The position numbers and the translations under genes are program-made. Of a stretch of DNA of 37,451 nt, positions 4,075 to 33,742 are shown piece after piece (position 1 is the first letter of the stretch; every line of letters starts with the position of its first letter). Source of the stretch: an uncultured beta proteobacterium (GTDB lineage Bacteria; Pseudomonadota; Gammaproteobacteria; Burkholderiales; Burkholderiaceae_C); NCBI GenBank assembly GCA_903948045.1, contig CAJAXU010000276.1, positions 1 to 37,451 on the forward strand, in the 5' to 3' direction. A model generated the notes under the pieces. That model did no database searches, was not told the origin of the DNA, and saw only the letters and a list, made by a program, of their open reading frames with translations.

Positions 4075-6378
4075 TCAATCCCATTGCGCCATGGCCTCAG
4101 GCCGATTCGCAAAACTGTCTGGCGCTTGCGGACCGGGGATGAGGCTGACACGTTCAATCTGCCCGCCGTACCGGTACACGCCACGCCCTTCACAATCGGC
4201 ACTGACTTTTCGCCGGCGGTCCAAGCCCACGTCAAAGCCTTCGCCTACCAGCCTTAAGAAAGTGGGCGTCATGTTCAGGGTTTCTGGCGCCATGACGCCG
4301 TTGAGAACCAACTGTCCCACCCCTTCCCTTTGACCCCGGGCACTGTGCTCCAGGCGCAGATGCTGGGCCCCGGGGCTCAACCGCAGACGGCACTGCCGCT
4401 CATCACCACGCGTCCCGACAAACGATACGACCACATCCCCCGACTGAACAAAAACGCAGAGACCGCCCATGTTGTCGCCAATGGAAAATATCACGCCCTC
4501 AAATCCTGCTTGCCAGCTGAAGTGTGCTTCCAGGCAGTAATCCCGATCCGCCATTGACGGCGCAAAGTTTTGCAGGGGAATCGTCTCAACCCCGGGATAA
4601 AAATGCAAGGGCGCAGAAAACTTCTTTTCCAGAAAAGGGGGCATCGCCAGCGTTTTTCGCAAATCGCGGTTGTCCAGCGGATAGACCTGGTTGCTTTGCG
4701 CATCAAGCTCAAATTCTGCGATCAGCTGCTGCAGGATATCGGGGTGGCGTGCCGCCAAGTTATCGCACTCTGTCGGATCGACTTCAAGATTGAATAACAG
4801 CCAGTTGCTCAAGTCAATGGGCTTGCTCATGGGTTGCAGGGAGACAATTTTCCAGGGGAAAAGAATCATGCCCCGATTGCCCTCGAGTTCAAAATGCTGG
4901 CGCGTGCGTTGGGCCGGCGTGTGTGCATTCTTCAGCACGTCTAAATAGCTGCAGCCGTCCAAGCCACGCGTCGGGTGCCCATTGAAGCTCAACGGATATT
5001 TCGCACCGATCATTTCCAACACCGTGGGCAGGGTATCTGTGACATGAACCCACTGGGTCCGCACCGCGCCCGCATCTTTGACGCTCTTTGGGTGGCTCAG
5101 GATCAAGGGTACCCGAATGCCGCCGTTCATCGGGGTGCGCTTGTAAAAGCGAAACGGTGTATTCGAGCAGTTGGCCCAGCCGACCGGATAGGCCACAAAG
5201 GTGTCGGAGCCGCCCACCACACCCTGCTCAAATGCTCGCAGCGCTTTTTGCGCCATGTCCGCATCGGTTGCGCGAGCCATCCTTTTTTCCATTGTGTTGA
5301 CCGTTCCCTCCGGCCCACCGATTGAATTGGCCCCGTTATCGGATGTGAGAACAATCAAGGTGTTGTCATAAACCCCCAAGGCCTTGAGCTCGGCCACCAG
5401 ACGGCCCACCTCCTGATCAACCAGCTCAACCATCGCGGCGTAGACCTGCATGTAATGCGCCATCAGCGGCCGCATCGCCTCAGGCACATCGTCCCAACGC
5501 GGTACACCTGGGTTGGCTTGCGACAAGCGCCAGTCCGGCCCGATCAAGCCCATCGCGCGCTGGCGGGCAAAACGAAGTTCGCGCTGACGGTCCCACCCCT
5601 GGTCGTAAACACCGGCGTAACGGGCAATGGCCTCTGGCGGCGCTTGCAAAGGCACGTGGGGGGCGTTGTGCGCGAGATACAGAAAAAAAGGTTTGTCCGG
5701 CGTGCTGCTTTGATGACCGCGCAGGTATTGAATCGATCGGTCGGTCCAATCCCGCGTCGCGTAGTAGCCGGGTGCGTAGGCATCAATGCTCAAAAATTCA
5801 TTGCCGTCGATCAGGTGGTGCGGCGAGAAGAAATGGGTCTCTGAACCCAAAAAGCCATAGAACCTGTCAAAACCGCGTTGCAGTGGCCAAGCCTGGCGGT
5901 CACTGCCTGAACCGATGTGATAGTCAGCCGTGTTATGCCACTTGCCAACCCCATAGGTGGAGTAACCCAGGCCGCGCAAGAGCTCGGGCATGGTGGGTGC
6001 ATCGGCCGACATCTCACCGGCCTGGTAACCTGGATAGCCCGGATTGTTGTGGGTCAACCAACCACATCCAACCGCATGCGGATTTTTCCCGGTGAGCAAG
6101 GCCGCACGCGCGGGTGTACACATCGGGACCGTGGTGTACCCGGTGAAACGCAAGCCGGCACCGGCCAAGGCGTCAATGTGGGGCGTAGCAATCTCGCCAC
6201 CAAAACAGCCAAAATCAGAAAAGCCCAAATCATCCAGCAAGATGACCACCACATTGGGGGCGCCCTGCGGTGCCCGCGTCGCGTCCCGCCACCAGGGCTT
6301 GGAATCTTTCAGGGTTTTACCAATCGTGCCCTGATAACCCTCAGCGGGGTTGGCGGGCGACTCCCACGAATACGTCAT
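4075..6378 (-). CDS. Cys-type (type I) sulfatase, arylsulfatase-like, with a C-terminal beta-rich extension; no signal peptide seen
   Basis: PNVVVILLDDLGFSDFGCFGGEIATPHIDALAG, active site MCTPARAALLTGKNPH (C-x-P-x-R), GVGKWHN, TSDNGAN. Start at MTYSWESPAN (6378) overlaps the GMC stop as ATGA. Confidence 0.88.
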   Translation of the reverse strand: MTYSWESPANPAEGYQGTIGKTLKDSKPWWRDATRAPQGAPNVVVILLDDLGFSDFGCFGGEIATPHIDALAGAGLRFTGYTTVPMCTPARAALLTGKNPHAVGCGWLTHNNPGYPGYQAGEMSADAPTMPELLRGLGYSTYGVGKWHNTADYHIGSGSDRQAWPLQRGFDRFYGFLGSETHFFSPHHLIDGNEFLSIDAYAPGYYATRDWTDRSIQYLRGHQSSTPDKPFFLYLAHNAPHVPLQAPPEAIARYAGVYDQGWDRQRELRFARQRAMGLIGPDWRLSQANPGVPRWDDVPEAMRPLMAHYMQVYAAMVELVDQEVGRLVAELKALGVYDNTLIVLTSDNGANSIGGPEGTVNTMEKRMARATDADMAQKALRAFEQGVVGGSDTFVAYPVGWANCSNTPFRFYKRTPMNGGIRVPLILSHPKSVKDAGAVRTQWVHVTDTLPTVLEMIGAKYPLSFNGHPTRGLDGCSYLDVLKNAHTPAQRTRQHFELEGNRGMILFPWKIVSLQPMSKPIDLSNWLLFNLEVDPTECDNLAARHPDILQQLIAEFELDAQSNQVYPLDNRDLRKTLAMPPFLEKKFSAPLHFYPGVETIPLQNFAPSMADRDYCLEAHFSWQAGFEGVIFSIGDNMGGLCVFVQSGDVVVSFVGTRGDERQCRLRLSPGAQHLRLEHSARGQREGVGQLVLNGVMAPETLNMTPTFLRLVGEGFDVGLDRRRKVSADCEGRGVYRYGGQIERVSLIPGPQAPDSFANRPEAMAQWD

Positions 6379-8024
6379 GCGTTGGCCTTGAAGGGATGTT
6401 GAAGAATGCAATCGGCACCTTTTTCGCCGATGGCAATCGAGGCAGCGTTGGTGTTCGACGAGGGCATGGTCGGCATAATCGAGGAGTCAATCACCCGCAG
6501 AGCCTGTACCCCTTTGACACGCAACTGCGGGTCGACCACGGCCATGGCATCGGTGCCCATCTTGCAGGTCCCTATGGGGTGCCAAGAGGTTTGTCCACAT
6601 TGGCGGATGTAATCGAGCACCGCCGCATCGTTTTGCACATCCAGCCCGGGGCGGGTTTCGCGCCGGATCAAGCCCTGCAGCGCGGGTTGGCTCGAGACCT
6701 GCCGGGCCAGGCGAAAAGCACGCACCATGTCTTCCTGATCTTGGGGGTGATTCATATAGCGCGGATCCATCAACGGCGCTTCCAAGGCATCTGGGGAATG
6801 CGCATGCACATGGCCACGCGAACGTGGGCGCAACTGGAAGAACCCGATCGCAAAACCCGGAAAAGGATCAAGTCCGGCACCGGGGCTGCGTGTATAACGG
6901 CTGTTGGCGCTCAGGTGCGTCATTTGGATCTTGACGCTGGCGCGCGGCTCGTCGGGATGTGCCGGAACCAGCGCGTGGACCGTCGCCGACGGCGTGGCCA
7001 TCATTCCCCGGCGCGTCAGCAAATATTTGGCGCCCATCCAGGCTTGGCGAATCGGGTTAGAGACAATTTCGTTCAGGCTAATGCGCTGAGTGCATTCAAA
7101 AGTGATGCGCCCCTGCAAGTGATCACACAGGTTTTCGCCCACACCGGGCACATCAGCTTTGACCTCTACGCCCAGCTCACGCAAGCGATTGGCCTGGCCA
7201 ACGCCAGAGAGTTCCAGCAACTGCGGCGACACAATAGGCCCGGCACTGAGGATGACTTCGCGGCGGGCCAGCACTTGCAGCGCTTGGCCATCGTGCAGGT
7301 AGCGAATCCCCACCGCCCGCGTGCCCTCCCACATCACCGATGTGGCCTGAGCCTGCACTTGCAGGGTGAGCTGAGGCGGGGTAAACCGGTCCAGATACGC
7401 TCGCGCCGTGCTGCTGCGCTGCCCCCGATGGGTGGACAACTGCAAATAGCCCACACCCTCGTACTGGGCACCGTTGTAGTCAGGGTTGGCGGCAATGCCG
7501 GCCTGCAAACAGCCCGCATGAAACGCATCTCCCAGGGGCTGCGGGTCATCTGCCAACGACGTGACCTGGATCGGGCCCTGCCGGCCACGGTAGGCGGCGT
7601 CTCCCATGGGCGCGGATTCGAGTTTCTTGAAGTAAGGCAACAAATCCTGATAGCCCCAGCCGGTGCATCCCAGGTCACGCCAATGGTTGTATTCACGTGG
7701 GTCGCCGCGCACATAAATCATGCCGTTGATCGAACTCGAGCCCCCAGGCATCTTGCCGCGTGGCCAATACACCTTCTGGTTGTTGACCTGCACTTGCGGC
7801 TCGGTAAAGAACGGCCACACATACTTGGGGTTTTGCAGCAGTCGGCCAATGCCCAATGGGGTTCGCACCCAAAAGTCATTGTGATGCGCGCCGCCGGCCT
7901 CGAGCAGCAACACGCTGGTGTCAGGCTGTTGCGCCAACCGGTGTGCCAGCGCCGCACCCGAAGAGCCGGCCCCGACCACCACATAGTCGTAGGTGGGCGT
8001 ACTCAAGCCGTGGTCTCCAGCCAC
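6375..8024 (-). CDS. GMC-family (choline dehydrogenase-like) FAD oxidoreductase, copy 1
   Basis: YDYVVVGAGSSGAALAHRLA, GGSSSINGMIYVRGDPREYNHW, TSWHPIGTCKMG, DSSIMPTMPSSNTNAASIAIGEKGAD. A TTG start at 8006 (TTGA overlap with the upstream stop) is also possible. Confidence 0.92.
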   Translation of the reverse strand: MAGDHGLSTPTYDYVVVGAGSSGAALAHRLAQQPDTSVLLLEAGGAHHNDFWVRTPLGIGRLLQNPKYVWPFFTEPQVQVNNQKVYWPRGKMPGGSSSINGMIYVRGDPREYNHWRDLGCTGWGYQDLLPYFKKLESAPMGDAAYRGRQGPIQVTSLADDPQPLGDAFHAGCLQAGIAANPDYNGAQYEGVGYLQLSTHRGQRSSTARAYLDRFTPPQLTLQVQAQATSVMWEGTRAVGIRYLHDGQALQVLARREVILSAGPIVSPQLLELSGVGQANRLRELGVEVKADVPGVGENLCDHLQGRITFECTQRISLNEIVSNPIRQAWMGAKYLLTRRGMMATPSATVHALVPAHPDEPRASVKIQMTHLSANSRYTRSPGAGLDPFPGFAIGFFQLRPRSRGHVHAHSPDALEAPLMDPRYMNHPQDQEDMVRAFRLARQVSSQPALQGLIRRETRPGLDVQNDAAVLDYIRQCGQTSWHPIGTCKMGTDAMAVVDPQLRVKGVQALRVIDSSIMPTMPSSNTNAASIAIGEKGADCILQHPFKANA

Positions 8025-13120: not shown

Positions 13121-14713
13121 TCAGGCCCGCTGTGGCGCCAAGGTCTTGGCGTAAAGTGAGGCGCCTGCCAGGTCCTTCAGGGTGACGGTCATGGCGCGGG
13201 TCTTGGCGTCAATGTCGACCTGGCCGAAGAACTGCATGCCGTTGGTCGGTGGTGCGTTTACTTCGGTCGGGGCTTTCTGGTACATCACCTGCATACCAAA
13301 GGTGGCGTCGGTCTTGTTGGGGCCAAAGCCGCCGGCATTTAGCGGGCCGGAAACAAATTCCCAGAACGGTGCAAAGTCGCTGAACTTGGCTTTGGCCGGG
13401 TCAAAGTAATGGGCGGCGGTGTAGTGCACGTCGGCCGTTAGCCAGACCACGTTCTTGATGCTGGCGCGCTTGATCTCGCGCAGCAGCCGGGCAATTTCCA
13501 GCTCGCGCCCCAGCGGAGCACCATCATCGCCGTTGGCCGAACCCTCCCAGCGGTCGCGGCCCTGAGCGTCCTTGCCGTCGCCCACATGCAGGCTGAGCGG
13601 CATGTCCGCCGCAATCACTTTCCAGGTGGACTTGGAGCGCTTGAGCCCGTCGAGCAACCAGGCGATCTGCGGCCGGCCCATGAAGGCGCTCTCGTCGTTC
13701 TCAATGGTTTGCAGGTTGGCGCTGTTGGGGCCGCGGTAGCTGCGCATGTCCACCACAAACAGGTCCAGTAGCGGGCCCTGCGGCAGGTGGCGATAAACCC
13801 GTTCAGTCTCAATGTCGGCGGTACGCCGCAGCGGCGCGTACTCGATGAAAGACTTGGTGGCACGCGCCACTAACAGGGGCACATTCTTTTCAGTGTAGCG
13901 CTTGTCGCCGCTGACGTCTTTGGAGTCTGACCAGTTGTTGCTGACTTCATGGTCGTCCCACTGCCAGATTTGCGGCACGTCAGCGGCCATGCGGCGAACA
14001 TTGGCGTCCATCAGGTTGTAGCGGTAGCGCCCCCGAAACTCGTTCAAAGTCTCTGCCACCTTGGTCACCTCATCGGTGACGACGTTGTTCCACAGGGTGC
14101 CGTCCGCCAGCTTGACTTGGGCCCGGATCGGGCCGTCAGCATAGATGGTGTCACCACTGTGCAAGAAAAAGTCGGGGTTGACCTTGCGCATCTGCTCGTA
14201 GATTTTCATGCCACCCCAAGCCTCGTTGATGCCCCAACCCTGGCCGGCAGTATCTCCGCTCCATGTGAATCGCACATCACGGCTTGCTTTGGCACCTGCC
14301 ATCGAAGGCAAGCGCAAATGACCGGCTAAGGGCTCAGACAGGACTCGCTCGTTGTGCAGGTCCTGCAGCACCACGCGGTAGAAAATTTCCTGGCCAGCCG
14401 GCAGCCCGACTAAGTCGACCCGTCCGGTGAAATCAGTGTCTTCCATCAGGTACGGGCCGCGCACCCGGGTTGGATTGTTGAAGCTGGCCGTCGTGGCCCA
14501 CTCCAGCCACATCCGTGCCGGACGGTCGCTGCGTGTCCAGACGACCGCACCGTCTGCCTTAGGATCGCCCGACTGAATGCCGTGGGCCATCTGCGGCCGC
14601 ATGGCATCTCGGGTGATGAACGGGGTGGCTGTCTGAGCCAGCGCCAGACTTGGCACAGCCAGACTGGTGCCTGCCAAGGTGGTGCTGGTTGTGAGAAATG
14701 TTCTACGGTCCAT
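13121..14713 (-). CDS. phoD: PhoD-like alkaline phosphatase/phosphodiesterase, Tat-exported
   Basis: MDRRTFLTTSTTLAGTSLAVPSLALA Tat signal; MAHGIQSGDPKADGAVVWTRSDRPARMWLEW; FLHSGDTIYADGPIRAQ; WDDHEVSNNW; VWLTADVHYTAAHYF. Confidence 0.88.
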   Translation of the reverse strand: MDRRTFLTTSTTLAGTSLAVPSLALAQTATPFITRDAMRPQMAHGIQSGDPKADGAVVWTRSDRPARMWLEWATTASFNNPTRVRGPYLMEDTDFTGRVDLVGLPAGQEIFYRVVLQDLHNERVLSEPLAGHLRLPSMAGAKASRDVRFTWSGDTAGQGWGINEAWGGMKIYEQMRKVNPDFFLHSGDTIYADGPIRAQVKLADGTLWNNVVTDEVTKVAETLNEFRGRYRYNLMDANVRRMAADVPQIWQWDDHEVSNNWSDSKDVSGDKRYTEKNVPLLVARATKSFIEYAPLRRTADIETERVYRHLPQGPLLDLFVVDMRSYRGPNSANLQTIENDESAFMGRPQIAWLLDGLKRSKSTWKVIAADMPLSLHVGDGKDAQGRDRWEGSANGDDGAPLGRELEIARLLREIKRASIKNVVWLTADVHYTAAHYFDPAKAKFSDFAPFWEFVSGPLNAGGFGPNKTDATFGMQVMYQKAPTEVNAPPTNGMQFFGQVDIDAKTRAMTVTLKDLAGASLYAKTLAPQRA

Positions 14714-14772: not shown

Positions 14773-14790
14773 GTGTCAAGCCAATGACGG
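14773..14790 (-). promoter_or_regulatory. Candidate Pho box upstream of phoD
   Basis: Minus strand CCGTCAT-TGGC-TTGACAC: two heptamers with 11-bp period, about 60 bp before the phoD ATG. Confidence 0.45.
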
Positions 14791-14823: not shown

Positions 14824-15366
14824 TTGAACGACACAGAATCTAAGCAGTTAACCCGCTGTTTTGGCGGCGACCCCACGCCACTGTTTATGCGCTCATTCAC
14901 TCTGCCATCCGCCTTTTCCAGCCGTGTCGCCCCTTGGTTAGCGACCTCTTATTTAGGGGCCCTTTCAGCCGTTCTGCCGCTGACGCCTCTGTTCGCCAGC
15001 CTGCTGTTTGGGCGTTTGAAGTACCTGCGGGACTACACCGGCTTTGTCAGGAAAATGCGCATTCACATCGCAGCCTTGCGCGAGGGGCCGGCACAGCATT
15101 ATTTTGAGGACGTGATGGGCCGCGCCAGCGCAGTGCCTGCCGAGATTGCCGGTTCTTGCGTTCAGTGCGGCAACTGCTGCATGGATAAACGCTGCGTTTT
15201 TTTGGAGCCGATCGACGATGGGCGCTACCAATGCGGCATCTACCACTCACCCTTTCGCCGCTTGTCCAACTGCGGCTCATTCCCGCTCAATGCGCACGAC
15301 ATTTCCCGCTATGCCTGTCCCAGTTATCACGTGGTCCATCTGGTGCGCAAGCCCGACACAGAATGA
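14824..15366 (+). CDS. YkgJ-family cysteine-cluster (putative Zn/Fe-binding) protein
   Basis: GSCVQCGNCCMDKRCVFLEPIDDGRYQCGIYHSPFRRLSNCGSFP. TTG start at 14824 or ATG at 14887. Confidence 0.75.
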   Translation: MNDTESKQLTRCFGGDPTPLFMRSFTLPSAFSSRVAPWLATSYLGALSAVLPLTPLFASLLFGRLKYLRDYTGFVRKMRIHIAALREGPAQHYFEDVMGRASAVPAEIAGSCVQCGNCCMDKRCVFLEPIDDGRYQCGIYHSPFRRLSNCGSFPLNAHDISRYACPSYHVVHLVRKPDTE

Positions 15367-16625
15367 GCCGCCCCATGCCACCAGGCTTTTTCCTGATCAT
15401 CGCGGCCCAGTTTGCCTCGGCGCTGGCGGACAACGCGCTGTTGATCGTCACCATCGCCCTGCTGTCCGAACAGGGCTTACCCGTCTGGTGGGCGCCCCTA
15501 CTCAAGTTTGTTTTCACCATCTCCTATGTGGTGCTGGCACCGTTTGTTGGGCCCTTGGCGGATGCGTTTCCCAAGGCGCGCCTGATGGCATGGATGAATG
15601 GGGTCAAGATGCTGGGGGTGCTGGCTCTGTTGCTGGGCGTCAACCCTTTGCTGGCCTTCGCCATTGCTGGCCTTGGTGCTGCAGCCTACGCGCCGGCTAA
15701 ATATGGCCTCATCACGGAGATCGTCGGCCCGCAAGGGCTGGTGCGCGCCAATGGCTGGCTGGAGGTGTCCATCGTCTGCGCCGCGCTCTTGGGCGCTGTG
15801 TTGGGCGGCTTGCTGGTTAATGTTGCGGTGCTCGATGGCCTGCATACGCTGTTGGGTGACGGTGGGCTGCTTGGCGCCTCTCGGCTGGCGCCCTCTATGC
15901 TGCTCTTGCTGCTGGTCTACACCCTGGCAGGGCTGCTCAACCTCGGGATCCCGCGCAGTGGCGCGCGCTACCCAGCCACCGCACTTGACCCTCTGGTCCT
16001 GATCCACGACTTCATACGGGCTAACCGCACACTCTGGCGAGATCGGCAGGGCGGGCTGTCACTGGCGGTCACCACCATTTTTTGGGGCCTGGGTGCCACC
16101 TTGCAATTCGTCGTTCTGAAATGGGCGGGTGATGTGTTGCACCTGCCACTGGACCAGTCAGCCTATCTGCAGGCTGCCGTCGCAATAGGCGTGGTGGTGG
16201 GTGCGGCGTCGGCCGGACGCTGGGTTGCCCTGGACCAGGCAAGACGCGTCTTGCCAGCCGGCGTGCTATTGGGCTTGATGATGCCGATCGTGGCCCAAGT
16301 GTCGGTGTTGTGGTTGGCCATACTGATGTTGGCCTTTGTGGGGATGGTAGGTGGCATTCTGGTGGTGCCACTCAATGCCCTGCTGCAGCACCGTGGCTTC
16401 ACTTTGCTGAGCGCCGGGCGCTCTGTGGCTGTGCAGGGGTTTAACGAAAACTTGAGCGTGCTGTGTATGCTAGGCTTGTATGCAGCCCTGGTGGCCGCTG
16501 AGGTGCCGATCGTACCGCTCATGGCCCTGTTCGGCCTGTCCATCGCCATGGCGATGGCGCTGCTGACTCATATTGCGTTCAGTTCGGTTACGGTCGATCA
16601 GGGCCCGACGCACCAGCACCGTTGA
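15363..16625 (+). CDS. lplT: LplT-like lysophospholipid transporter (MFS)
   Basis: MSRPMPPGFFLIIAAQFASALADNALLIVTIALL...KFVFTISYVVLAPFVGPLADAFPKARLMAWMNGVKMLG...APAKYGLITEIVGPQGLVRANGWLE. Start overlaps the YkgJ stop (ATGA). Confidence 0.82.
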   Translation: MSRPMPPGFFLIIAAQFASALADNALLIVTIALLSEQGLPVWWAPLLKFVFTISYVVLAPFVGPLADAFPKARLMAWMNGVKMLGVLALLLGVNPLLAFAIAGLGAAAYAPAKYGLITEIVGPQGLVRANGWLEVSIVCAALLGAVLGGLLVNVAVLDGLHTLLGDGGLLGASRLAPSMLLLLLVYTLAGLLNLGIPRSGARYPATALDPLVLIHDFIRANRTLWRDRQGGLSLAVTTIFWGLGATLQFVVLKWAGDVLHLPLDQSAYLQAAVAIGVVVGAASAGRWVALDQARRVLPAGVLLGLMMPIVAQVSVLWLAILMLAFVGMVGGILVVPLNALLQHRGFTLLSAGRSVAVQGFNENLSVLCMLGLYAALVAAEVPIVPLMALFGLSIAMAMALLTHIAFSSVTVDQGPTHQHR

Positions 16626-17829
16626 TGCTGGCCTGCTGCATCACCGCCTGCAGCACCGCCTCAAATTGCTGCACGATGCGAGACCAATCCAGCTGCAGGG
16701 CCGTTTGGCGCGCGGCTTGACCTAAACGGGCACGTACGGCTGGCTGCGCGGCCAGCGCCAGCGCGGCCGCCACGAAACTCTCGGCGTCACCCATGGCCAC
16801 CACCCGGCCGTTGGCCTCGTCAACCAGCCACTCCGCTGCAGCCGCATCGTTAAAGGCAACCACCGGCAAGCCGCTGGCCATGGCTTCGGTGGTGACGTTG
16901 CCAAACGTCTCGGTCATGCTGGGCATCAAAAAAAGGTCGACGCTGGCGTAGTGCTCAGCCAGCACGCTGCCACGCAGCTGGCCGGTGAAGATGGCGTCGG
17001 GGCACTGCGCCTGCAGCGCCTGGCGCATTGGGCCATGCCCGACCAGCACCAAGCGGGCTCTCGGCACCCGCTGCTTAATCTCCTGATAGGCCTGGACCAG
17101 CAGCGTGAGGTTTTTTTCGGGCGCGAGTCGACCCACACTGAGAACTGCCAGGTCACCGGTGTCTAACCCCCATTGCTCGCGCAGTGTCTGCTGACGACGG
17201 GCGGGGTCGAATGCTGCTGTGTCAACACCGCGGCTCACCACCTTCAGCTGGTGGAAGCCAGCTGCAGCTAATGCGCCTTGCAAAGCCTTGGTAGGCACCA
17301 TGGTGCAGTGGGCCCGGTTATGGAACTTGCGCAGGTAGCCCATGATGGGCTTTTGCAAGAAGCCGACGCCATAGTGGGCGCTGTAGCTCTGGAAATTGGT
17401 GCGGTAATCGGTCGATATTGGTAGCTTCAAATACAGGGCTGCGCGTAAAGCCGACCAGCCCAGTGGGCCTTCGGTCGCGATATGGACCACATCAGGTCGG
17501 CGTAGCTGCCACAGCTTGATCAACGCCCCCTTGGAGGGTAAGCCCATCCGCAGCTCGGGGTAACGCGGGATCGGCAGGCCCCGCATGAGTACCTCATGGA
17601 ACCCCGGTCTCAGGGCGTCTTGACTCGCCTGGTCGGTTCCACTTTGCCGGGGCCGGATCAGTTGCACGTCATGGTTGTTGCCGCGCAGACCTTCGACCAG
17701 CCGGGCAAGCGTCAGGGCCACGCCATTGACTTCGGGTGGATAGGTTTCTGTCACCACCGCCACGCGCCAGGAGCGCTGCTTGGCGGGGAAGTTGTCAACC
17801 TCGAACTCGGGGTTTGCGTCTGTATCCAT
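16588..17829 (-). CDS. GT4 glycosyltransferase (MgtA/Agt-like), candidate glycolipid synthase
   Basis: RVAVVTETYPPEVNGVALTLARLVEGL...GVDTAAFDPARR...LSVGRLAPEKNLTLLVQAY...PSMTETFGNVTTEAMASGLPVVAFN. Start taken at MDTDANP. Confidence 0.85.
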   Translation of the reverse strand: MDTDANPEFEVDNFPAKQRSWRVAVVTETYPPEVNGVALTLARLVEGLRGNNHDVQLIRPRQSGTDQASQDALRPGFHEVLMRGLPIPRYPELRMGLPSKGALIKLWQLRRPDVVHIATEGPLGWSALRAALYLKLPISTDYRTNFQSYSAHYGVGFLQKPIMGYLRKFHNRAHCTMVPTKALQGALAAAGFHQLKVVSRGVDTAAFDPARRQQTLREQWGLDTGDLAVLSVGRLAPEKNLTLLVQAYQEIKQRVPRARLVLVGHGPMRQALQAQCPDAIFTGQLRGSVLAEHYASVDLFLMPSMTETFGNVTTEAMASGLPVVAFNDAAAAEWLVDEANGRVVAMGDAESFVAAALALAAQPAVRARLGQAARQTALQLDWSRIVQQFEAVLQAVMQQASINGAGASGPDRP

Positions 17830-17894
17830 CAGCCCATATTGGCAGCGCTTGATAACAAAATGATGACACGCCTGTTCTCGGATATGAAACACCC

Positions 17895-17912
17895 GTGTCA
17901 TGCGAGTTTCAC
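17895..17912 (+). promoter_or_regulatory. Candidate Pho box in the GT4 / membrane protein divergent intergenic region
   Basis: GTGTCAT-GCGA-GTTTCAC, 11-bp period, about 70 bp before the 17982 start. Confidence 0.5.
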
Positions 17913-17981
17913 ATTCGCTCGCTAGAGTGACCCTGCCTTTTCACTACCCCGGGCGCCATGCCTGCTATTTTCGAGGTCGCT

Positions 17982-18590
17982 ATGAACCGCTATTTGCAAG
18001 AGCTCAAGACGCAACGTTGGGACGACCACCGTTATTACCATCACAGCCGCATCAACCAGAGTTTGCACTTGCTCAGTGCGATCGTGTTTGTCATCTCGTA
18101 CGTCTTGTTGTTCATTGAGCCGGCCTGGGCTGCCTTGCTCGCCTGGTCGGTGTCCATGACAAGCCGTCAAGCCGGGCACTTCTTTTTTGAGCCACGCGGC
18201 TATGACGAAGTCAATCAGGCCACCGACGCCCATAAAGAGGCGATCAAGATCGGCTACAACATTGAGCGAAAAATTGTGTTGCTGGTGATCTGGGCTGCCG
18301 CGCCTGTGGTGCTTTGGCTGGAGCCGACGCTATTTGGGCAGATTGCAGCTGCCGGCAATTGGCTTGAGTTTTTGCACGACGTGGGCATTGCCTGGCTGGC
18401 CCTGGGCGTGGCCGGCCTGCTGTTCCGTGTCGGGCAACTCTGGATACAGCAAGACATGTGGACCGGCCTGGTGTGGGCAAGCAAGATCATTACCGATCCT
18501 TTCCACGACATCATGCTGTACCACAAGGCACCCCTGGCGCTGCTTCGCGGTGAGCTGATCGACCCGATGACGCATGCGCGTCATCGGTGA
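17982..18590 (+). CDS. Small His-containing multi-pass membrane protein, possibly DUF962/Mpo1-like
   Basis: MNRYLQELKTQRWDDHRYYHHSRINQSLHLLSAIVFVISYVLL...TSRQAGHFFFEPRGYDEVNQATDAHKEAIKIGYN. Several hydrophobic helices; the GHFFFEP segment is only suggestive of Mpo1. GAGG RBS upstream of 17982 (17958 also possible). Confidence 0.55.
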   Translation: MNRYLQELKTQRWDDHRYYHHSRINQSLHLLSAIVFVISYVLLFIEPAWAALLAWSVSMTSRQAGHFFFEPRGYDEVNQATDAHKEAIKIGYNIERKIVLLVIWAAAPVVLWLEPTLFGQIAAAGNWLEFLHDVGIAWLALGVAGLLFRVGQLWIQQDMWTGLVWASKIITDPFHDIMLYHKAPLALLRGELIDPMTHARHR

Positions 18591-18613: not shown

Positions 18614-20260
18614 TCAGCGGGGTTGGCGCAGCATCTCTCTGAAGATGCCTTTGCGGATGGTCTGGTTGCTTTGCACCGGGCCGTCCCACCAGCCGTCATC
18701 CTGCATGGCCTGGGCAGCCCCGACAAAGGCTTGAACCACGGCCTCAAAGTCACCGTCGGTGTAGTTGAGACTGAAGATCAGTCGAGCACTTCCCACCCAA
18801 CTCAAGGCCAGGCCGTGTGCCCGCAGATAAAACTGAAGCATCCAGTTGTACCGGGAGGGTTGGGTATACAACACTGTCCAGACAGTCGACATGTTCGCTA
18901 CTCGCACCGGCAAGCCCTGCTGTTCAAGTCTGGCGTTGAGCTGGCGCGCCCTGCCGTCCCAGCGTTCGTCGATGCCATCGTACAGTGCGAGGATCTCGGG
19001 GGTCTCAATGGCATCCAGAAAAGCCTGCATCGCGCCCATCACATAGGGGTGGGCATTGAAGGTGCCGCGGGCAAAGCAGATGTCGGCCGGCCGGTTCTCC
19101 CGGTAGCGCTTCATCAGGGCAGCCCGGCCACAAACCACACCCACCGGCAGGCCACCGCCCAGTGTCTTGCCGTAGGTCACCATATCGGCCTGGACACCAA
19201 AATAGGCCTGCGCGCCGCCAGCAGCCAGCCGGAACCCGAGAAACACCTCGTCAAAGATCAGCACGATGCCGCGCTCGGTGCAGACTTGCCGCAGGCGCTG
19301 CAGCCAGGCGGTGTACGCGGCACGGTCGTAGGCCACCTTACGGCTGCTGTCAACCAGCGACGAGTCGCCCGGTGCGGGCGCATTGGGGTGCAAGGCCTGC
19401 AAGGGATTGATCAAAACACAGGCAATGTCTTTTCGGGTGCGCAGCACGTGCAGGCTGCGCTCGTCCATGTCCTTGAGGGTATGGGTTTCGCGCGGCGGCA
19501 GCGGGTTGCCGGGGCCGGGCTGCACGTCTTCCCACCAGCCGTGGTAGGCGCCGCAAAATCGCACCAGGTGGCTGCGCCCGGTGTGGTAGCGGGCCAGCCG
19601 CACGGCCTGCATCACGGCCTCGGTGCCCGACATGTGAAACGACACCTCGTCCAGCCCAGAGATACGTTTGAGCCGGGTCACGTTGTCCAGCACACAGGGG
19701 TGGTAGGCGCCGAGCACCGGCCCCAGCGCCTGCACCGTGCGCTGGCCGGCTTCGATGCAAGTTTTATAGAAATCGTACCCCAAAAGATTGACGCCGTAAG
19801 AGCCGGTCAGGTCGTAAAACACATTGCCATCGAGGTCGGTCACCGTCACCCCCTGCGACGACTGCAGAAAGCTGCCGCTTTTGATGTGGCGGCCCAGGTA
19901 ATCGGTGTATTGGTAGGGCACCCGGTAGCGCCCGGTGAACTGCATGTCCGAAATGATGGCCCGAGCGCTGGCTGTCATCGCAGCGCTCTTGGCATAACGG
20001 GCGTCATACAGGGCTGCCAGCCGGGCAAAGCCATCACGCCGCCGCTGCACCACCGGGCCGGTGGCGTGGTCCGAGTTGAAGAAAGTGGCTTCGTCATAGG
20101 CATAGCCGGGCAAAAGCCCTGCGATGCGCTTGGCAATGCGCGAATGACCAGCGAGAGAGCGGTGCTTTGCCCGCGACAGTTCAAGCCGGCGTTTGGCTTT
20201 GGGTAGGGCCCAGGCCAGGACGCCCAGGGCCAGTAAGGGAAGGGCCATGCTGTTGTCCAT
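18614..20260 (-). CDS. Class III aminotransferase (glutamate-1-semialdehyde aminomutase-like) with N-terminal hydrophobic anchor
   Basis: MALPLLALGVLAWALPKAKRR anchor; SGTEAVMQAVRLARYHTGRSHLVRFCGAYHGWWEDVQPG; IVLIFDEVFLGFRLAAGGAQAYFGVQADMVTYGKTLGGGLPVGVVCG. RBS GGAGGAATTG before the ATG. Confidence 0.85.
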   Translation of the reverse strand: MDNSMALPLLALGVLAWALPKAKRRLELSRAKHRSLAGHSRIAKRIAGLLPGYAYDEATFFNSDHATGPVVQRRRDGFARLAALYDARYAKSAAMTASARAIISDMQFTGRYRVPYQYTDYLGRHIKSGSFLQSSQGVTVTDLDGNVFYDLTGSYGVNLLGYDFYKTCIEAGQRTVQALGPVLGAYHPCVLDNVTRLKRISGLDEVSFHMSGTEAVMQAVRLARYHTGRSHLVRFCGAYHGWWEDVQPGPGNPLPPRETHTLKDMDERSLHVLRTRKDIACVLINPLQALHPNAPAPGDSSLVDSSRKVAYDRAAYTAWLQRLRQVCTERGIVLIFDEVFLGFRLAAGGAQAYFGVQADMVTYGKTLGGGLPVGVVCGRAALMKRYRENRPADICFARGTFNAHPYVMGAMQAFLDAIETPEILALYDGIDERWDGRARQLNARLEQQGLPVRVANMSTVWTVLYTQPSRYNWMLQFYLRAHGLALSWVGSARLIFSLNYTDGDFEAVVQAFVGAAQAMQDDGWWDGPVQSNQTIRKGIFREMLRQPR

Positions 20261-20280: not shown

Positions 20281-20320
20281 ATGACAAACGTACCCAACTT
20301 AATTGACAGGCATATGAAAA
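20281..20320 (-). promoter_or_regulatory. Candidate tandem Pho boxes upstream of the class III aminotransferase, covering the psd start
   Basis: Minus strand TTTTCAT-ATGC-CTGTCAA-TTAA-GTTGGGT-ACGT-TTGTCAT: units at 0/11/22/33 (third unit degenerate). Confidence 0.45.
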
Positions 20321-21192
20321 CTAATTTATTCCAACGCATTTTTCTACAAGAAGACCTGAACTTCCTGCTGACCAACCGTGTGCCGCGCCTGCTGCTGACG
20401 CGCTGGATGGGCTGGTTCAGCCACCTGCGCAACCCCTTGCTGACGCGATGGTCGATCCGGGTCTGGCGCCTGTTCACCGATCTCGATCTGAGCGACGCCC
20501 GACAGCAGCACTTTGCCAGCCTGCACGACTGCTTTACCCGTGAACTGGTGCCTGGTGCGCGCGTGATCGACCCCGACCCGGCGGCGCTGTGCAGCCCCAG
20601 TGACGGCATCGTGGGGGCTTGCGGGCGCGTGGTGGATGGGATGGTGCTGCAGGCCAAGGGTTTCCCATATTCGATCAGCGAGCTGTTTGGCCCCAGCCAG
20701 GACACCAGCGTGTTTCGAAATGGCAGCTACATCACGCTGCGTCTGACGTCGAGCATGTACCACCGCTTTCATGCACCGCAAGACATGACGGTTGAGCATG
20801 TGACCTACCTCAGTGGCGACACCTGGAATGTGAACCCGATTGCGCTGGCGCGGGTCGAGCGCCTTTTTTGCCGCAACGAACGTGCCGTGCTGCGCGCCCG
20901 ACTGACCGGCAGCGGCCATCCGATCGCGCTGGTGCCGGTGGCGGCGATTCTGGTGGCCAGCATCCGGTTGCATTTTCTAGATGTGCTACTGCACTTGCGC
21001 TATCGCGGCGCCAACGAGATTCCCTGCACTGCGAACTGCGTCAAGGGCCAGGAGCTGGGCTGGTTTGAGCATGGCTCCACCATCATCGTGTTCACCCCGC
21101 CGAGCTTTAACTTGTGTGACGGGATTGAGACCGGCCGCCAGGTCCGGATGGGGCAGGGCTTGATGCGGGTGGCCGCGACCGTCAGTGCGTGA
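20281..21192 (+). CDS. psd: Phosphatidylserine decarboxylase (Psd-like)
   Basis: CSPSDGIVGACGRV, YLSGDTWNVNPIAL, autocleavage-type motif GWFEHGSTIIVFTP. Start 20281 or 20314. Confidence 0.82.
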   Translation: MTNVPNLIDRHMKTNLFQRIFLQEDLNFLLTNRVPRLLLTRWMGWFSHLRNPLLTRWSIRVWRLFTDLDLSDARQQHFASLHDCFTRELVPGARVIDPDPAALCSPSDGIVGACGRVVDGMVLQAKGFPYSISELFGPSQDTSVFRNGSYITLRLTSSMYHRFHAPQDMTVEHVTYLSGDTWNVNPIALARVERLFCRNERAVLRARLTGSGHPIALVPVAAILVASIRLHFLDVLLHLRYRGANEIPCTANCVKGQELGWFEHGSTIIVFTPPSFNLCDGIETGRQVRMGQGLMRVAATVSA

Positions 21193-21240: not shown

Positions 21241-21280
21241 TTGTCATCGTTTTGCCGCAGCAACGTCATAACACGGTCAC
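21241..21280 (+). promoter_or_regulatory. Candidate tandem Pho boxes upstream of ugd
   Basis: TTGTCAT-CGTT-TTGCCGC-AGCA-ACGTCAT-AACA-CGGTCAC: units phased at 11 bp, ending 47 bp before the ugd ATG. Confidence 0.5.
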
Positions 21281-21327: not shown

Positions 21328-22713
21328 ATGAAAGTCAGCGTGTTTGGCGCCGGTTACGTCGGTCTGGTGACGGCGGCCTGCCTGGCAGAAATGGGCAACA
21401 GCGTGGTTTGTGTGGATGTCGATGCAAAGCGCGTGACCGATTTGCAGCGTGGTATCTCTCCCATCCATGAACAAGGCCTGGAGCCACTGTTGCAGCGCAA
21501 CGCGGCAGCCGGCCGACTGACCTTTACCAACGATCTGGCCGTGGCCGTGAACCATGGCACCATCGTGTTCATCGCCGTGGGCACGCCTGCTGCTGAAGAT
21601 GGCTCTGCCGATTTGCAACATGTCTTGGCCGTGGCGCAGTCTATTGGCGAGCACATGAACGACTACAAGCTGGTCGTCAACAAGAGCACAGTGCCGGTTG
21701 GCACCGCCGACCGGGTGCGCGAGACCCTGGCCGCTGCCCTGCGCCAACGCGCTGCGGCGCTGCCCTATGCTGTGGTGTCCAACCCGGAGTTCCTTAAGGA
21801 GGGTGTGGCCATTGACGACTTCATGCGGCCGGACCGGGTGATCGTAGGTTGCGACAACGACCAGGCGGCTTTGTTGATGCGGGCCCTGTATGCGCCGTTT
21901 CTGCGCAACCGCGACCGGCTGATGATGATGGATGTGCGCAGCGCCGAACTCACCAAGTATGTGGCCAATGCCATGCTGGCCACGCGCATCAGCTTTATGA
22001 ACGAGATGGCACTGCTGTCGGAGAAGGTGGGCGCTGATATTGAGCAAGTTCGGCTTGGCATTGGCAGTGACTCCCGCATCGGCAGCCATTTTCTGTATGC
22101 CGGCTGTGGTTGGGGCGGGTCGTGCTTTCCCAAGGACGTGCGCGCCCTGGCCCACATGGCCACCGAGGCCGGCACCGAGCTGAGCATGCTGCAAGCCACC
22201 CAGGCCATCAATGACCGGCAACGCGGCCTGTTGGGGCGGCGCGTGGTGGCCCGCTTTGGCCCCGACCTGAGTGGCCTGCAGTTTGCGGTGTGGGGACTGT
22301 CCTTCAAGCCGGGCACGGACGACATGCGCGAAGCGCCGAGCGTGAACCTGATTGACGAGCTGCTGCAGCGCGGCGCCCGGGTGCAGGCCTTTGACCCGGT
22401 GGCAATGGTCGGTGCCAGCGCACGTTGGCAGGCGCAGCCTGGCTTTATGGCCTGCAAAGACCCGCTCGCGGCAACTGAAGGGGCAGACGCCTTGATTGTG
22501 GTGACTGAGTGGCGCGAATTTCGCAGCCCGGACTTCGCCGAGCTGGCCCGGCGCTTGCGGCAACCCGTCGTCTTCGATGGCCGCAACCTGTATGACCCAA
22601 CGCTGATGGCCGAACTGGGTTTTGAGTACACCGGCATTGGCAGATCGACGGCAGAGGTGCCCAGCACAACGGACCATGCCGGGCGTTCGCCCTGGGTGGC
22701 GTTAGCCGCCTGA
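21328..22713 (+). CDS. ugd: UDP-glucose 6-dehydrogenase
   Basis: MKVSVFGAGYVGLVTAACLAEMGNSVVCVDVD, NPEFLKEGVAIDDFMRPDRVIVG, GCGWGGSCFPKDVRAL, SFKPGTDDMREAPS. Confidence 0.95.
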   Translation: MKVSVFGAGYVGLVTAACLAEMGNSVVCVDVDAKRVTDLQRGISPIHEQGLEPLLQRNAAAGRLTFTNDLAVAVNHGTIVFIAVGTPAAEDGSADLQHVLAVAQSIGEHMNDYKLVVNKSTVPVGTADRVRETLAAALRQRAAALPYAVVSNPEFLKEGVAIDDFMRPDRVIVGCDNDQAALLMRALYAPFLRNRDRLMMMDVRSAELTKYVANAMLATRISFMNEMALLSEKVGADIEQVRLGIGSDSRIGSHFLYAGCGWGGSCFPKDVRALAHMATEAGTELSMLQATQAINDRQRGLLGRRVVARFGPDLSGLQFAVWGLSFKPGTDDMREAPSVNLIDELLQRGARVQAFDPVAMVGASARWQAQPGFMACKDPLAATEGADALIVVTEWREFRSPDFAELARRLRQPVVFDGRNLYDPTLMAELGFEYTGIGRSTAEVPSTTDHAGRSPWVALAA

Positions 22714-23535
22714 GGCGGCCCGGCCCGCCACGGGTCTGGGCAAGGCCAAGGCGGGTACGGACGCCACCACTGGCTCTGCCTGATTGCCAAAGTCAAGGAT
22801 CTCCAACCGGCCGTCATGGTGTTCCACCAGGGCGGTCAGGCTCTCCACCCAGTCGCCGTCATTGCAGTACAGGACACCCTCGATCTGGCGCATCTCAGCG
22901 TGGTGAATGTGGCCGCAGACCACGCCATCCAGGCCACGCCGCCGGGCTTCGTGCGCTACGGCCGTTTCAAAATCGCTGACGTAGCTGACCGCCCGCTTGA
23001 CCTTGAGCTTGATGTACTTGGACAGACTCCAATAGGGCAGCCCCAGGTGGGCGCGCAGCACGTTGAAGCGACGATTCACCTTAAGAATGAACTCATAGGC
23101 TATGTCGCCGGCGTAGGCCAGCCACTTGGCGCACTGGATCACGCCGTCAAACAGATCGCCGTGGGTGACCCAAAGGCGCCGTCCGTCAGCCAGGGTGTGG
23201 ACGCAGTCCTCCACCACATCGACACCGCCAAAATTGTGCTGCAGGTACTTGCGGGCAAACTCGTCGTGGTTGCCCGGCACAAACACCACACGCGTGCCCT
23301 TGCGCGCCTTGCGCAGAATTTTTTGAACCACGTCGTTGTGCGTCTGCGGCCAGTACCAGCTGCGCCGCAGCTGCCAGCCGTCAATGATGTCGCCCACCAG
23401 GTACAGCGTTTCACAGTCGGTGGTTTTCAGAAAAGCCAGCAGCGCTTCGGCTTGGCAACCCGGTGTACCGAGGTGGATGTCAGAGATCCAGACGGTGCGC
23501 AGGCATCGGTCGTTGGTCAGGTTGTCATCGGTCAC
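22702..23535 (-). CDS. Metallophosphoesterase of the LpxH/PlcP-like group (often annotated UDP-2,3-diacylglucosamine diphosphatase); candidate phospholipase C PlcP
   Basis: WISDIHLGTPGCQ, YLVGDIIDGWQLRRSWYWPQTHNDV, VPGNHDEFA, THGDLFDGVIQCAKWLA, VVCGHIHHAEM. Confidence 0.85.
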   Translation of the reverse strand: MTDDNLTNDRCLRTVWISDIHLGTPGCQAEALLAFLKTTDCETLYLVGDIIDGWQLRRSWYWPQTHNDVVQKILRKARKGTRVVFVPGNHDEFARKYLQHNFGGVDVVEDCVHTLADGRRLWVTHGDLFDGVIQCAKWLAYAGDIAYEFILKVNRRFNVLRAHLGLPYWSLSKYIKLKVKRAVSYVSDFETAVAHEARRRGLDGVVCGHIHHAEMRQIEGVLYCNDGDWVESLTALVEHHDGRLEILDFGNQAEPVVASVPALALPRPVAGRAASGG

Positions 23536-23578
23536 GCTCAGCCTCTCCGTGGGTTTGCAGAGATGCTAGAGACCCTAC

Positions 23579-23618
23579 GTGACGGAGATGTGAAAACCCG
23601 GTGAAGCTTGCGTGTCAG
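23579..23618 (-). promoter_or_regulatory. Candidate tandem Pho boxes upstream of the PlcP-like gene
   Basis: Minus strand CTGACAC-GCAA-GCTTCAC-CGGG-TTTTCAC-ATCT-CCGTCAC: four heptamers at exact 11-bp period, 43 bp before the ATG. Confidence 0.6.
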
Positions 23619-23658: not shown

Positions 23659-23720
23659 GCGCTATTGAATCAATAGCTATAAACCCAATCAGGACGTGGC
23701 CTGGAGGGCGATTTGGCTCA
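23659..23720 (+). repeat. 62-bp direct repeat, copy 1 (REP-like, contains palindrome GCTATTGAATCAATAGC)
   Basis: One mismatch to 24530-24591 (G at 23703 vs A at 24574). Confidence 0.97.
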
Positions 23721-23787: not shown

Positions 23788-24180
23788 CTAAGCTGGCTGC
23801 ACCGGCACGCTTTGGGCAGTCTTTGACGCTTTTTTGACAAGCGCCTTGTCAAATGTCAGAAACGCTTGGACGCCACCGCTCAACCCCAGGTGCAAGGCAT
23901 CGGCAAAATCAAGTCCCTCACCGTACGCGTCGAGCGCAGCACTCACGATGTCTGCTTGCGGCAGCGTAAAGTTGGGCAGGTTCAGCAGCAAGCCAACGCC
24001 CTGTCGAATCGCTGCTGGCGTGCAGTCGTTCGACTCCAACACCCAGACCAACTCCAGCAACACGGTCACTGGCGCGGTGAATTGCTGATCCGAAGCCAGC
24101 AAAGCGCGGGCACGTTTGTACTGGGCTGCGTCATCCCGTAGCAGCAGCCGGGCCAGCACATTGGTGTCGAGCGCCCTCAT
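23788..24180 (-). CDS. VapC-type PIN-domain toxin
   Basis: MRALDTNVLARLLLRDDAAQ...VLLELVWVLES...GLDFADALHLGLS...FLTFDKAL: conserved acidic PIN residues. Confidence 0.88.
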   Translation of the reverse strand: MRALDTNVLARLLLRDDAAQYKRARALLASDQQFTAPVTVLLELVWVLESNDCTPAAIRQGVGLLLNLPNFTLPQADIVSAALDAYGEGLDFADALHLGLSGGVQAFLTFDKALVKKASKTAQSVPVQPA

Positions 24181-24437
24181 GGCGCGTGCCGCGCCTTCAG
24201 TTTGGCGCGGATCGCGGCCTTGGCGTCCGCCTCACTCAACAGCTTTCGCTCGGGCCGGTATAGACAACCCGCCACTTGAGCCAAGCTGGATACAGGCCGC
24301 TCAAGCAAGGGCCGCAACCGAATTTCGCCTTCCACGTAGCGCACTTCCAGGCGGCAACCTGCGCTGACGTGGGCATCGTCTCGCACTGCTTTGGGTATGA
24401 CGAGTTGGCCTTTGCTGGAGAGGGTGACAGTTTCCAT
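24177..24437 (-). CDS. AbrB/SpoVT-type antitoxin (VapB-like)
   Basis: METVTLSSKGQLVIPKAVRDDAHVSAGCRLEVRYVEGEIRLRP; 4-nt overlap with the toxin gene. Confidence 0.88.
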   Translation of the reverse strand: METVTLSSKGQLVIPKAVRDDAHVSAGCRLEVRYVEGEIRLRPLLERPVSSLAQVAGCLYRPERKLLSEADAKAAIRAKLKARHAP

Positions 24438-24529: not shown

Positions 24530-24591
24530 GCGCTATTGAATCAATAGCTATAAACCCAATCAGGACGTGGCCTAGAGGGCGATTTGGCTCA
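24530..24591 (+). repeat. 62-bp direct repeat, copy 2
   Basis: Matches 23659-23720 with one mismatch. Confidence 0.97.
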
Positions 24592-29910: not shown

Positions 29911-31536
29911 TTAGCCTTGGTCAGACAAAATCATGTCTGCGGCCTTCTCGCCGATGGCGATAGAGGGAGCATTGGTATTCGACGTTGGCATGGTCGGCAT
30001 GACCGATGAGTCCACCACACGCAAACCATCCAGGCCATGTACCCGCAAACGATCATCCACCACGGCCATGGCATCGCGGCCCATGCGGCAGGTGCCGATG
30101 GGATGCCAAGAGGTTTGTCCTGAGCGCTTGAGGTAGTCAAGCAGTGCCTCGTCACTGTCGGTTTCCGGGCCCGGGCGCGTCTCACGCACGATTAAAGCTT
30201 GCAGTGGCCCACTGCTGGCGATTCGGCGCGCCAACCGGGCAGCCCGCAGCAGGGCACGGCAATCGCCTTCCGCGGCAAGGTAGTTTGGGTCGATGATGGG
30301 CGCCTCGGACACATCGGTGCTGCGTGAATGCACACTACCGCGAGACTCTGGGCGAAGCTGAAAAAAACCGATACCAAAGCCCGGGTAGAGGTCCATCCCA
30401 GCCGCAGGGTTATTGGCATAACGATCAGCCCCGGTTTTATGGGTGATCTGGATTTTTGCGTCGGGCTGCAGATCGTTCGGGTCGGTGCGGGCCAGAGCGT
30501 GAACGGTGGCGAGTGGCGCCGCCATGAAGCCCCGGCGCGTCAGCAGGTAATGAGCACCCATCAAAGCCTGGCGCAGCGGGCTGGCCAAAATCTCATTCAG
30601 CGTGATGGCCTTGGTGCATTCATAGGTCAACCGGGACTGGAAGTGATCGATCAGGTTCTCACCAACCCCAGGCAGCGCATGCACGACCGGCAACCCCAGT
30701 CGCTGCAGCAGCGCGGGCTGACCCACCCCCGACAACTCCAGCAATTGCGGCGACTGAATGGGCCCCGCCGACAGGATCACTTCGGCCCTGATGCGAACGT
30801 GGCAGATTTGACCCTTATGGCGGTATTCGACGCCGACTGCGCGTCGGCCCTCAAAGACGATGCGCGAGGCCACGGCTTGAGTCCGCATTTCCAACCCGGT
30901 TGGCGCATCGGGGCCCAGATAGCCCTTGGCAGTGCTGCAGCGCCTCCCTTGCTGGATAGAAACTTGCAGATAGCCCACACCCTCGTAGCATCCGCCGTTG
31001 TAGTCAGGGGTGGACGGTATACCTGCTGCATTGCAAGCGGCCAAAAAAGCGTCTGGCAACTCACTAGGGCGATCAGCCAAGGCCGTCAGCCGGATCGGAC
31101 CGCTACGCCCCCGTTGTGCCGGATCGCCAAAGTTGGTTGACTCGATGCGTTTGAAATAGGGCAACAAATCATCCCAGCCCCAACCGCGATTGCCGAGAGC
31201 ACGCCAGCGGTCATATTCTGCCGGGTCACCACGCACCCACAAGTTGCCGTTGACCGAGCTTGAGCCGCCTGGCACGCGACCGCGCGGCCAATAGACCTGC
31301 TGCCCTCCCAGGTGGGCCTGTTTTTCGGTGTGAAAAGGCCAAACGTAACGCGGGTCCATCAACAGCTTGCCCACGCCTAAGGGTACTTCGACCCAAAAAT
31401 CCCGGTGGCGGGGCTCGCCCGCTTCAAGCAACAAGACACGAGTACCTGGTCGATCCGCCAACCTGCGTGCCAGCGCAGCCCCAGACGAACCAGCGCCAAT
31501 GACCACATAGTCAACGGTCTGTGTGGGTGCGATCAT
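29911..31536 (-). CDS. GMC-family FAD oxidoreductase, copy 2
   Basis: VDYVVIGAGSSGAALARRLADRPG, GGSSSVNGNLWVRGDPAEYDRW, TSWHPIGTCRMGRDAMAVVD, VVDSSVMPTMPTSNTNAPSIAIGEKAAD. Confidence 0.92.
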   Translation of the reverse strand: MIAPTQTVDYVVIGAGSSGAALARRLADRPGTRVLLLEAGEPRHRDFWVEVPLGVGKLLMDPRYVWPFHTEKQAHLGGQQVYWPRGRVPGGSSSVNGNLWVRGDPAEYDRWRALGNRGWGWDDLLPYFKRIESTNFGDPAQRGRSGPIRLTALADRPSELPDAFLAACNAAGIPSTPDYNGGCYEGVGYLQVSIQQGRRCSTAKGYLGPDAPTGLEMRTQAVASRIVFEGRRAVGVEYRHKGQICHVRIRAEVILSAGPIQSPQLLELSGVGQPALLQRLGLPVVHALPGVGENLIDHFQSRLTYECTKAITLNEILASPLRQALMGAHYLLTRRGFMAAPLATVHALARTDPNDLQPDAKIQITHKTGADRYANNPAAGMDLYPGFGIGFFQLRPESRGSVHSRSTDVSEAPIIDPNYLAAEGDCRALLRAARLARRIASSGPLQALIVRETRPGPETDSDEALLDYLKRSGQTSWHPIGTCRMGRDAMAVVDDRLRVHGLDGLRVVDSSVMPTMPTSNTNAPSIAIGEKAADMILSDQG

Positions 31537-32746: not shown

Positions 32747-33742
32747 CTACTCTGCCTTGATATTGCCTTTGCGGATCACTTCAGCCCATGTCGCGACATC
32801 GGTACGTATCGTCTCAGCAAATTGGTCCGCGGTACGCGGCTGCATGTTCGCCAAACCCAGCGACTCCCAGCGCTTGGCGTATTCGGGAGACTGCATGGCG
32901 CGGTTGACTGCGGCGTTAAGGCGCTCGACGATGGCGCGCGGTGTCCCGGCCGGAGCGACCAGGCAGTACCAGGTCGCGATCTGGAAATTAACGCCTTGCT
33001 CCGTTAAGGTTGGCACGTCCGGCAGCGAAGGCTCTCGATTCGGACCACTGACCGCCAGCGCCCGAAGCTTCCCGGCCTTGATAAGGGACAAGGCTGCGGC
33101 AGGAGCCGAAAAGCCAGCTTGCAAACGCCCGCCCATGATCTCGACATTGGACTCCGCAGCAGACTTATAAGGCACGTGCTGCATCTTTAGCCCCGTGCTC
33201 TGCAGAACGATTTCCATACTTAAATGGCCCGCAGAGCCGATGCCCCAGGAACCATAGGACCCCGACTCCGCGGGCCGCCTGCGCATCTCGGCAAGGAACT
33301 CCTGAACATTTTTCGCAGGGAAGTCGGCAGACACCACCAGGAAATTGCCACCCGAACCAATTTGGGCGACGGCGGCGAAATCCTTGGCGCCGTCGTAACC
33401 CGCATTGGGGTACAGACTTTGGTTGACCACCTGAGCCGCCGCATAGCTGAACAGCAACGTATAGCCGTCAGCCGGCGCCTTCGCGACCTCCCGGCTCCCA
33501 ATCATGCCATTGGCACCTGGCTTGGCTTCAACCACAAACGGTTGCTTGAAAAGGCTGGACAGCGACTCGGCAAAAACCCGAGCAACAAGATCGGTCCCAC
33601 TACCGATCCCGCTGGGAACGATCAGTTTGACCGGTTTGGTGGGCCAGCTGTCCTGGGCCATCGCTGGCAACTGCGAAGCCAGTGTGCAAATGACGGCCAA
33701 ACGAGCAAGAAAGGCGGTGGTGCGACGGCGACATAACATCAT
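32747..33742 (-). CDS. Tripartite tricarboxylate transporter substrate-binding protein (Bug family)
   Basis: Signal peptide; WPTKPVKLIVPSGIGSGTDLVARVFAESL...EAKPGANGMIGSREVAKAPADGYTLL. Confidence 0.9.
   Translation of the reverse strand: MMLCRRRTTAFLARLAVICTLASQLPAMAQDSWPTKPVKLIVPSGIGSGTDLVARVFAESLSSLFKQPFVVEAKPGANGMIGSREVAKAPADGYTLLFSYAAAQVVNQSLYPNAGYDGAKDFAAVAQIGSGGNFLVVSADFPAKNVQEFLAEMRRRPAESGSYGSWGIGSAGHLSMEIVLQSTGLKMQHVPYKSAAESNVEIMGGRLQAGFSAPAAALSLIKAGKLRALAVSGPNREPSLPDVPTLTEQGVNFQIATWYCLVAPAGTPRAIVERLNAAVNRAMQSPEYAKRWESLGLANMQPRTADQFAETIRTDVATWAEVIRKGNIKAE

Follow-up and report, generated by a model that had tools for sequence, protein, structure and literature searches.

In a 37,451-nucleotide stretch of DNA from an uncultured beta proteobacterium (contig CAJAXU010000276.1, referred to here as the window), we found a four-unit Pho-box array upstream of plcP, the gene for an intracellular phospholipase C, and we consider it very likely that PhoB operates this gene to feed diacylglycerol into phosphorus-free lipids, with partners encoded in the same cluster. 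The combination of PlcP and a Pho box is of a kind already known, and the set of genes that stands beside it here seems to represent a form of PlcP-dependent lipid remodelling not described before. The cluster probably lets this freshwater bacterium replace phospholipids by phosphorus-free lipids, in part through enzymes that the literature we searched does not connect with such remodelling.

Pho-box array and promoter of plcP

The promoter region of plcP comprises the following features.

23579..23618, minus strand: Pho-box array, four units at 11-bp steps (sequence and scan)
23563..23568, minus strand: TAGCAT, putative -10 element, 10 nt past the last Pho unit
23542..23548, minus strand: Shine-Dalgarno sequence GGAGAGG, preceding the GTG start (from sequence)
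22702..23535, minus strand: plcP, intracellular phospholipase C (homology, tree and motifs)

On the minus strand, the array reads CTGACAC, GCTTCAC, TTTTCAC and CCGTCAC, joined by GCAA, CGGG and ATCT, and the GTG start of plcP (23533-23535) lies 43 nt downstream of it. An earlier note had described four tandem Pho-box heptamers at exact 11-bp steps, and both the sequence and the scan confirmed them. The region has the anatomy of a Pho box, with 7-mer direct repeats at 11 bp and a -10 element downstream. Across this promoter family, a -10-type hexamer recurs at offset 10, and E. coli phoA has the same 10-nt gap between its Pho box and its -10 hexamer.

The window was scanned with a hand-made PhoB unit matrix, and 60 copies of it generated by a first-order Markov model served as the null. 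With 24.5 bits, the array was the top four-unit match on both strands, against a median of 9.5 and a maximum of 21.5 bits for the best match in shuffled copies. Counting without a matrix, four NNNNCAY units at 11 bp occurred 3 times in the window, against 0.16 expected per shuffled window, and the remaining two arrays lie near the PhoD promoter. Further top matches of the scan fell at other promoters of the plcP locus, which the earlier note had not remarked on.

Conservation of the dimer is a stronger test of the array than the window scan. A strong 11-bp dimer stands upstream of 33 of 57 plcP orthologues, compared with 1 of 57 after shuffling. When TCAY pairs were tallied by distance in gaps and upstream regions, again free of the matrix, a sharp peak at 11 bp appeared upstream of plcP (19 pairs) and in the Mpo1/GT4 (86) and PSD/AT3 (15) gaps of the gene cassette described below, while ugd upstream regions gave 8 pairs at 11 bp and 13 at 22 bp. 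A chance run of CAC-containing 7-mers before a gene that is not phosphate-regulated would agree with the weakness of one unit (the second, GCTTCAC, at 2.7 bits) and with the absence of the full four-unit array from most relatives' plcP upstream regions. However, such an origin is highly improbable given that the array scores highest in the window, that dimers are conserved before plcP orthologues, that the -10 spacing is fixed, and that 11-bp TCAY pairs numbered zero in the two control regions, namely the convergent AT3/Mpo1 gap and the AT3 interior.

The closest PlcP found (locus L113, 91% identical) retains TAGCAT, the 10-nt gap and just the proximal two of the four units, suggesting that the proximal dimer probably forms the working core and that the two distal units, and with them the number four, are a local elaboration. 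We propose that the array is a PhoB operator that overlaps the promoter's -35 position. Under phosphate shortage, PhoB in its phosphorylated form would bind the tandem 7-mers and, together with sigma-70 at TAGCAT, switch plcP on. The organism's own genome encodes PhoB (328 bits, cut-off 296). A family search of this metagenome-assembled genome (MAG), which is 82% complete, found no PstS, so a pst promoter could not serve as a positive control.

A 62-nt direct repeat (98%; 23659-23720 and 24530-24591) flanks a toxin-antitoxin pair, both genes on the minus strand, formed by a PIN-domain protein (23788-24180) and a MazE/AbrB-type antitoxin (24180-24437). Twelve further partial copies of the repeat (75-86%) are scattered through the genome.

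Assignment to PlcP and not LpxH

The product of plcP is a 277-aa metallophosphoesterase, and the database label of its family is UDP-2,3-diacylglucosamine diphosphatase, the lipid A enzyme LpxH. This label, together with the calcineurin fold and metal motifs common to both enzymes, would speak for a housekeeping lpxH with incidental Pho-like repeats upstream. However, the protein reached only 35-41 bits with curated LpxH models, whose cut-offs are 134 and 190, and a maximum-likelihood tree of 55 proteins split PlcP from LpxH with 100/100 support, placing the window protein outside the LpxH clade, among the PlcPs of Sinorhizobium meliloti and Pseudomonas aeruginosa. A separate true LpxH is encoded elsewhere in the organism's genome (contig C370; 199 bits, cut-off 190). 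Likewise, all 17 plcP-carrying beta- and gammaproteobacterial genomes checked also have a distinct LpxH-family gene, 11 of them over the cut-off and 6 near it. These scores, the tree and the second gene refute the housekeeping reading in effect, and we regard it as practically untenable.

The two-metal calcineurin motifs DxH, GDxxD, GNHD, HGD and GHxH are invariant in the alignment. The window protein is 52.9% identical to an S. meliloti protein whose gene neighbours an acyl-homoserine-lactone synthase and a LuxR regulator, a neighbourhood that fits the sin locus, and we take this protein to be SMc00171, an experimentally proven PlcP. It is also 54.5% identical to a P. aeruginosa protein (PA3219) whose gene precedes a glycosyltransferase gene in the plcP-agt1 layout. 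On sequence grounds, then, the gene beside the array is PlcP. The earlier note had favoured PlcP over LpxH because of the Pho box; the tree, the LpxH scores and the second gene bear it out on better grounds, and the protein neither groups with LpxH nor is the sole LpxH candidate of its genome. PlcP homologues are routinely mislabelled in databases as the lipid A enzyme, and this locus shows how the two can be separated.

Both of these PlcPs resemble the window protein in identity over the whole domain (53-55%), in metal-ligand motifs and in what is probably the same Pho-box control. The window differs from both in having no agt after plcP, in a four-unit array in place of a two-unit core, and in a plcP that is convergent with ugd. 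Separately, a chromosomal-type plcP-agt1 segment was seen on a 96-kb P. aeruginosa plasmid record (L103:5995-7859), and two further plasmid records carry plcP.

A conserved gene cassette beside plcP

The genes and promoter elements neighbouring plcP are listed below.

21328..22713, plus strand: ugd, UDP-glucose 6-dehydrogenase (makes UDP-glucuronate), convergent with plcP
21241..21280, plus strand: Pho-like array upstream of ugd, TTGTCAT..ACGTCATAACACGGTCAC (scan; weaker conservation)
20314..21192, plus strand: second phosphatidylserine decarboxylase (PSD), active-site motifs D, H and GST conserved
20303..20320, minus strand: TTTTCATATGCCTGTCAA, Pho dimer of the AT3 promoter, which overlaps the start codon of PSD
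20287-20292, minus strand: -10 element TACGTT of the AT3 promoter
18614..20260, minus strand: AT3, class-III aminotransferase; hydrophobic helix at the N terminus; closest to the AMT domain of MycA (mycosubtilin synthase)
17958..18590, plus strand: Mpo1-like protein (PF06127, match just below the cut-off)
17895..17912, plus strand: Pho dimer GTGTCATGCGAGTTTCAC of the Mpo1-like promoter, followed after 10 nt by TAGAGT (17923-17928)
16588..17901, minus strand: GT4 glycosyltransferase, real start probably near 17829
15231..16625, plus strand: LplT-type lysophospholipid transporter (479 bits, cut-off 297)
14773-14790: Pho-like dimer CCGTCATTGGCTTGACAC upstream of PhoD (scan and sequence)
13121..14713, minus strand: PhoD-type alkaline phosphatase

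A scan of 84,980 species genomes for AT3 gave more than 590 relatives, whose named lineages are mostly betaproteobacterial, and the best 80 were kept as loci. Among these best 80 of more than 590, PSD was present in 77, AT3 in 80, the Mpo1-like gene in 79 and GT4 in 71, with the genes usually facing alternately. Within about 9 kb of the cassette, the same best 80 of more than 590 had LplT in 32, plcP in 24 and ugd in 18. Conserved Pho boxes stand at two of the cassette promoters. By orientation, 11-bp pairs numbered 77 for AT3 against 2 on the other strand and 102 for the Mpo1-like gene against 8, and in AT3 promoters the -10 hexamer has its T and A at offset 10 in 96% and 94%. In the pair counts of the cassette gaps, GT4 and PSD had no clear Pho box in their own orientation. 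The ugd Pho boxes are weak, at 11 of 20 against 5 of 20 shuffled, and alphaproteobacterial cassettes showed no general 11-bp peak. In one of the latter (L208), CTGTCATCAATCTGTCAG was seen by eye only, and we make no Pho-box claim for it. At the promoter of the Mpo1-like gene (17873-17928 in the window, and the matching gap in L107-L186), the related loci often have two dimers arranged 11-13-11, a spacing that is unusual for PhoB sites.

The PSD of the cassette is an additional one. PSD was found elsewhere in 9 of 9 cassette genomes checked, including the window's own (one being a partial match), and 4 of 5 genomes checked that have no cassette encode one PSD. In the window's genome, the cassette enzyme and the housekeeping PSD of contig C519 share 30% identity. 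GT4, a candidate diacylglycerol glycosyltransferase, is 33% identical to P. aeruginosa Agt1, and its best family models are lipid glycosyltransferases, with scores below their cut-offs.

By sequence and predicted fold (mean pLDDT 82.7), the nearest solved relatives of AT3 are the AMT domain of MycA and then HemL, the best matches reaching 223 profile bits and a TM-score of 0.82 by target length. Two residues, the PLP lysine (K366) and an aspartate (D338), do not vary. In mycosubtilin synthase, the AMT domain adds an amino group to a beta-keto acyl chain, and the likeness of AT3 to this domain, along with the membrane helix, suggests that AT3 may act on a lipid-linked carbonyl. Unlike the MycA domain and HemL, AT3 is a stand-alone, membrane-anchored protein inside a phosphate-starvation lipid cluster.

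In alphaproteobacterial genomes, the neighbours of the PSD-AT3-Mpo1 trio are often Agt (about 50% identical to Agt1) and a PmtA-like methyltransferase; in family f36, they are Ugd or an OlsF-type ornithine-lipid synthase. The trio is thus found near genes for phosphorus-free lipid synthesis in several different contexts. Two loci (L216:3677-6349 and L222:2347-5019) encode, between AT3 and PSD, a protein of 891 aa that ends in a GT4 domain, and about 500 of its N-terminal residues have no Pfam match.

Partners of PlcP and a possible lipid pathway

Among 151 genomes of the window's family, plcP was found in 106, AT3 in 38 and Agt in 53, with plcP missing from over a quarter. All 38 AT3 genomes have plcP (P = 1.2e-7, uncorrected for the relatedness of the genomes), as do all 53 Agt genomes. 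Only 6 family genomes have both AT3 and Agt (odds ratio 0.08, P = 1.8e-7, likewise uncorrected for relatedness), and AT3 appears largely to replace Agt, the usual partner of PlcP, in this family. The MAG itself (82% complete) gave no Agt match at 1e-50, the neighbours of plcP here differ from a PlcP-Agt operon, and OlsB was not found in the same incomplete genome. In 21 family genomes, such as G077, G122 and G134, plcP is present with neither Agt nor AT3.

We propose that PlcP, as a cytosolic two-metal phosphoesterase, would split phospholipids into diacylglycerol and a phospho-alcohol, out of which phosphate would be recovered. The diacylglycerol would then enter phosphorus-free lipids, most likely through the GT4 enzyme of the cluster and UDP-glucuronate supplied by Ugd, while AT3, the second PSD and the Mpo1-like protein may tailor or supply the substitute lipid. 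A different view is that plcP is phosphate-regulated but the PSD-AT3-Mpo1-GT4 genes form a separate phosphate-response module, for example for PE salvage, where PSD would renew PE and AT3 would strip the amine or the phosphate from PE-derived phosphoethanolamine. Class-III aminotransferases do include phospho-lyases, and plcP is often not a direct neighbour of the cassette. In addition, the phosphatases acting downstream of PlcP have been called unknown in a review (PMC3972451). However, the nearest solved structure to AT3 is that of an acyl-chain aminotransferase, its N-terminal helix is of the membrane type, and lipid synthesis is indicated both by the near-exclusion of AT3 and Agt and by the linkage of AT3 to genes for glycosyltransferases, Ugd, and OlsF-type and OlsB-like proteins, so we consider a separate module rather unlikely and prefer a cassette whose products work with PlcP on the substitute lipid.

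PlcP-Agt remodelling and the plcP-agt1 Pho box of P. aeruginosa have already been described (PMC8528852). The window shares with the PlcP-Agt systems of Phaeobacter, SAR11, P. aeruginosa and Agrobacterium the plcP gene, a lipid-type glycosyltransferase, a supply of UDP-glucuronate and, probably, PhoB control. It differs from them in a glycosyltransferase of a separate lineage (33% identical to Agt1) and in the addition of a second PSD, a class-III aminotransferase and an Mpo1-like protein. The open-access literature that we searched contained nothing relevant on these cassette genes together with phosphate control, although this is no proof of novelty. We tentatively suggest, as a possibility that may well prove wrong, that the cassette is an undescribed phosphate-starvation pathway to a phosphorus-free amino(glyco)lipid, used by many Betaproteobacteria and by some Alphaproteobacteria in place of what Agt makes, in which AT3 would aminate a lipid-linked carbonyl and the second PSD would decarboxylate a serine-type lipid head group. 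In Betaproteobacteria of fresh water and soil, the conserved gene set appears to act as the alternative partner for PlcP; if it does, this route to a lower phosphorus need can be tested, and a new lipid may turn up.

Two kinds of gene occur twice in the window, on either side of the lipid cluster: GMC oxidoreductase genes (6375-8024 and 29911-31536) and TctC-receptor genes (3068-4042 and 32747-33742), and pieces of TPP enzymes accompany these duplicated genes.
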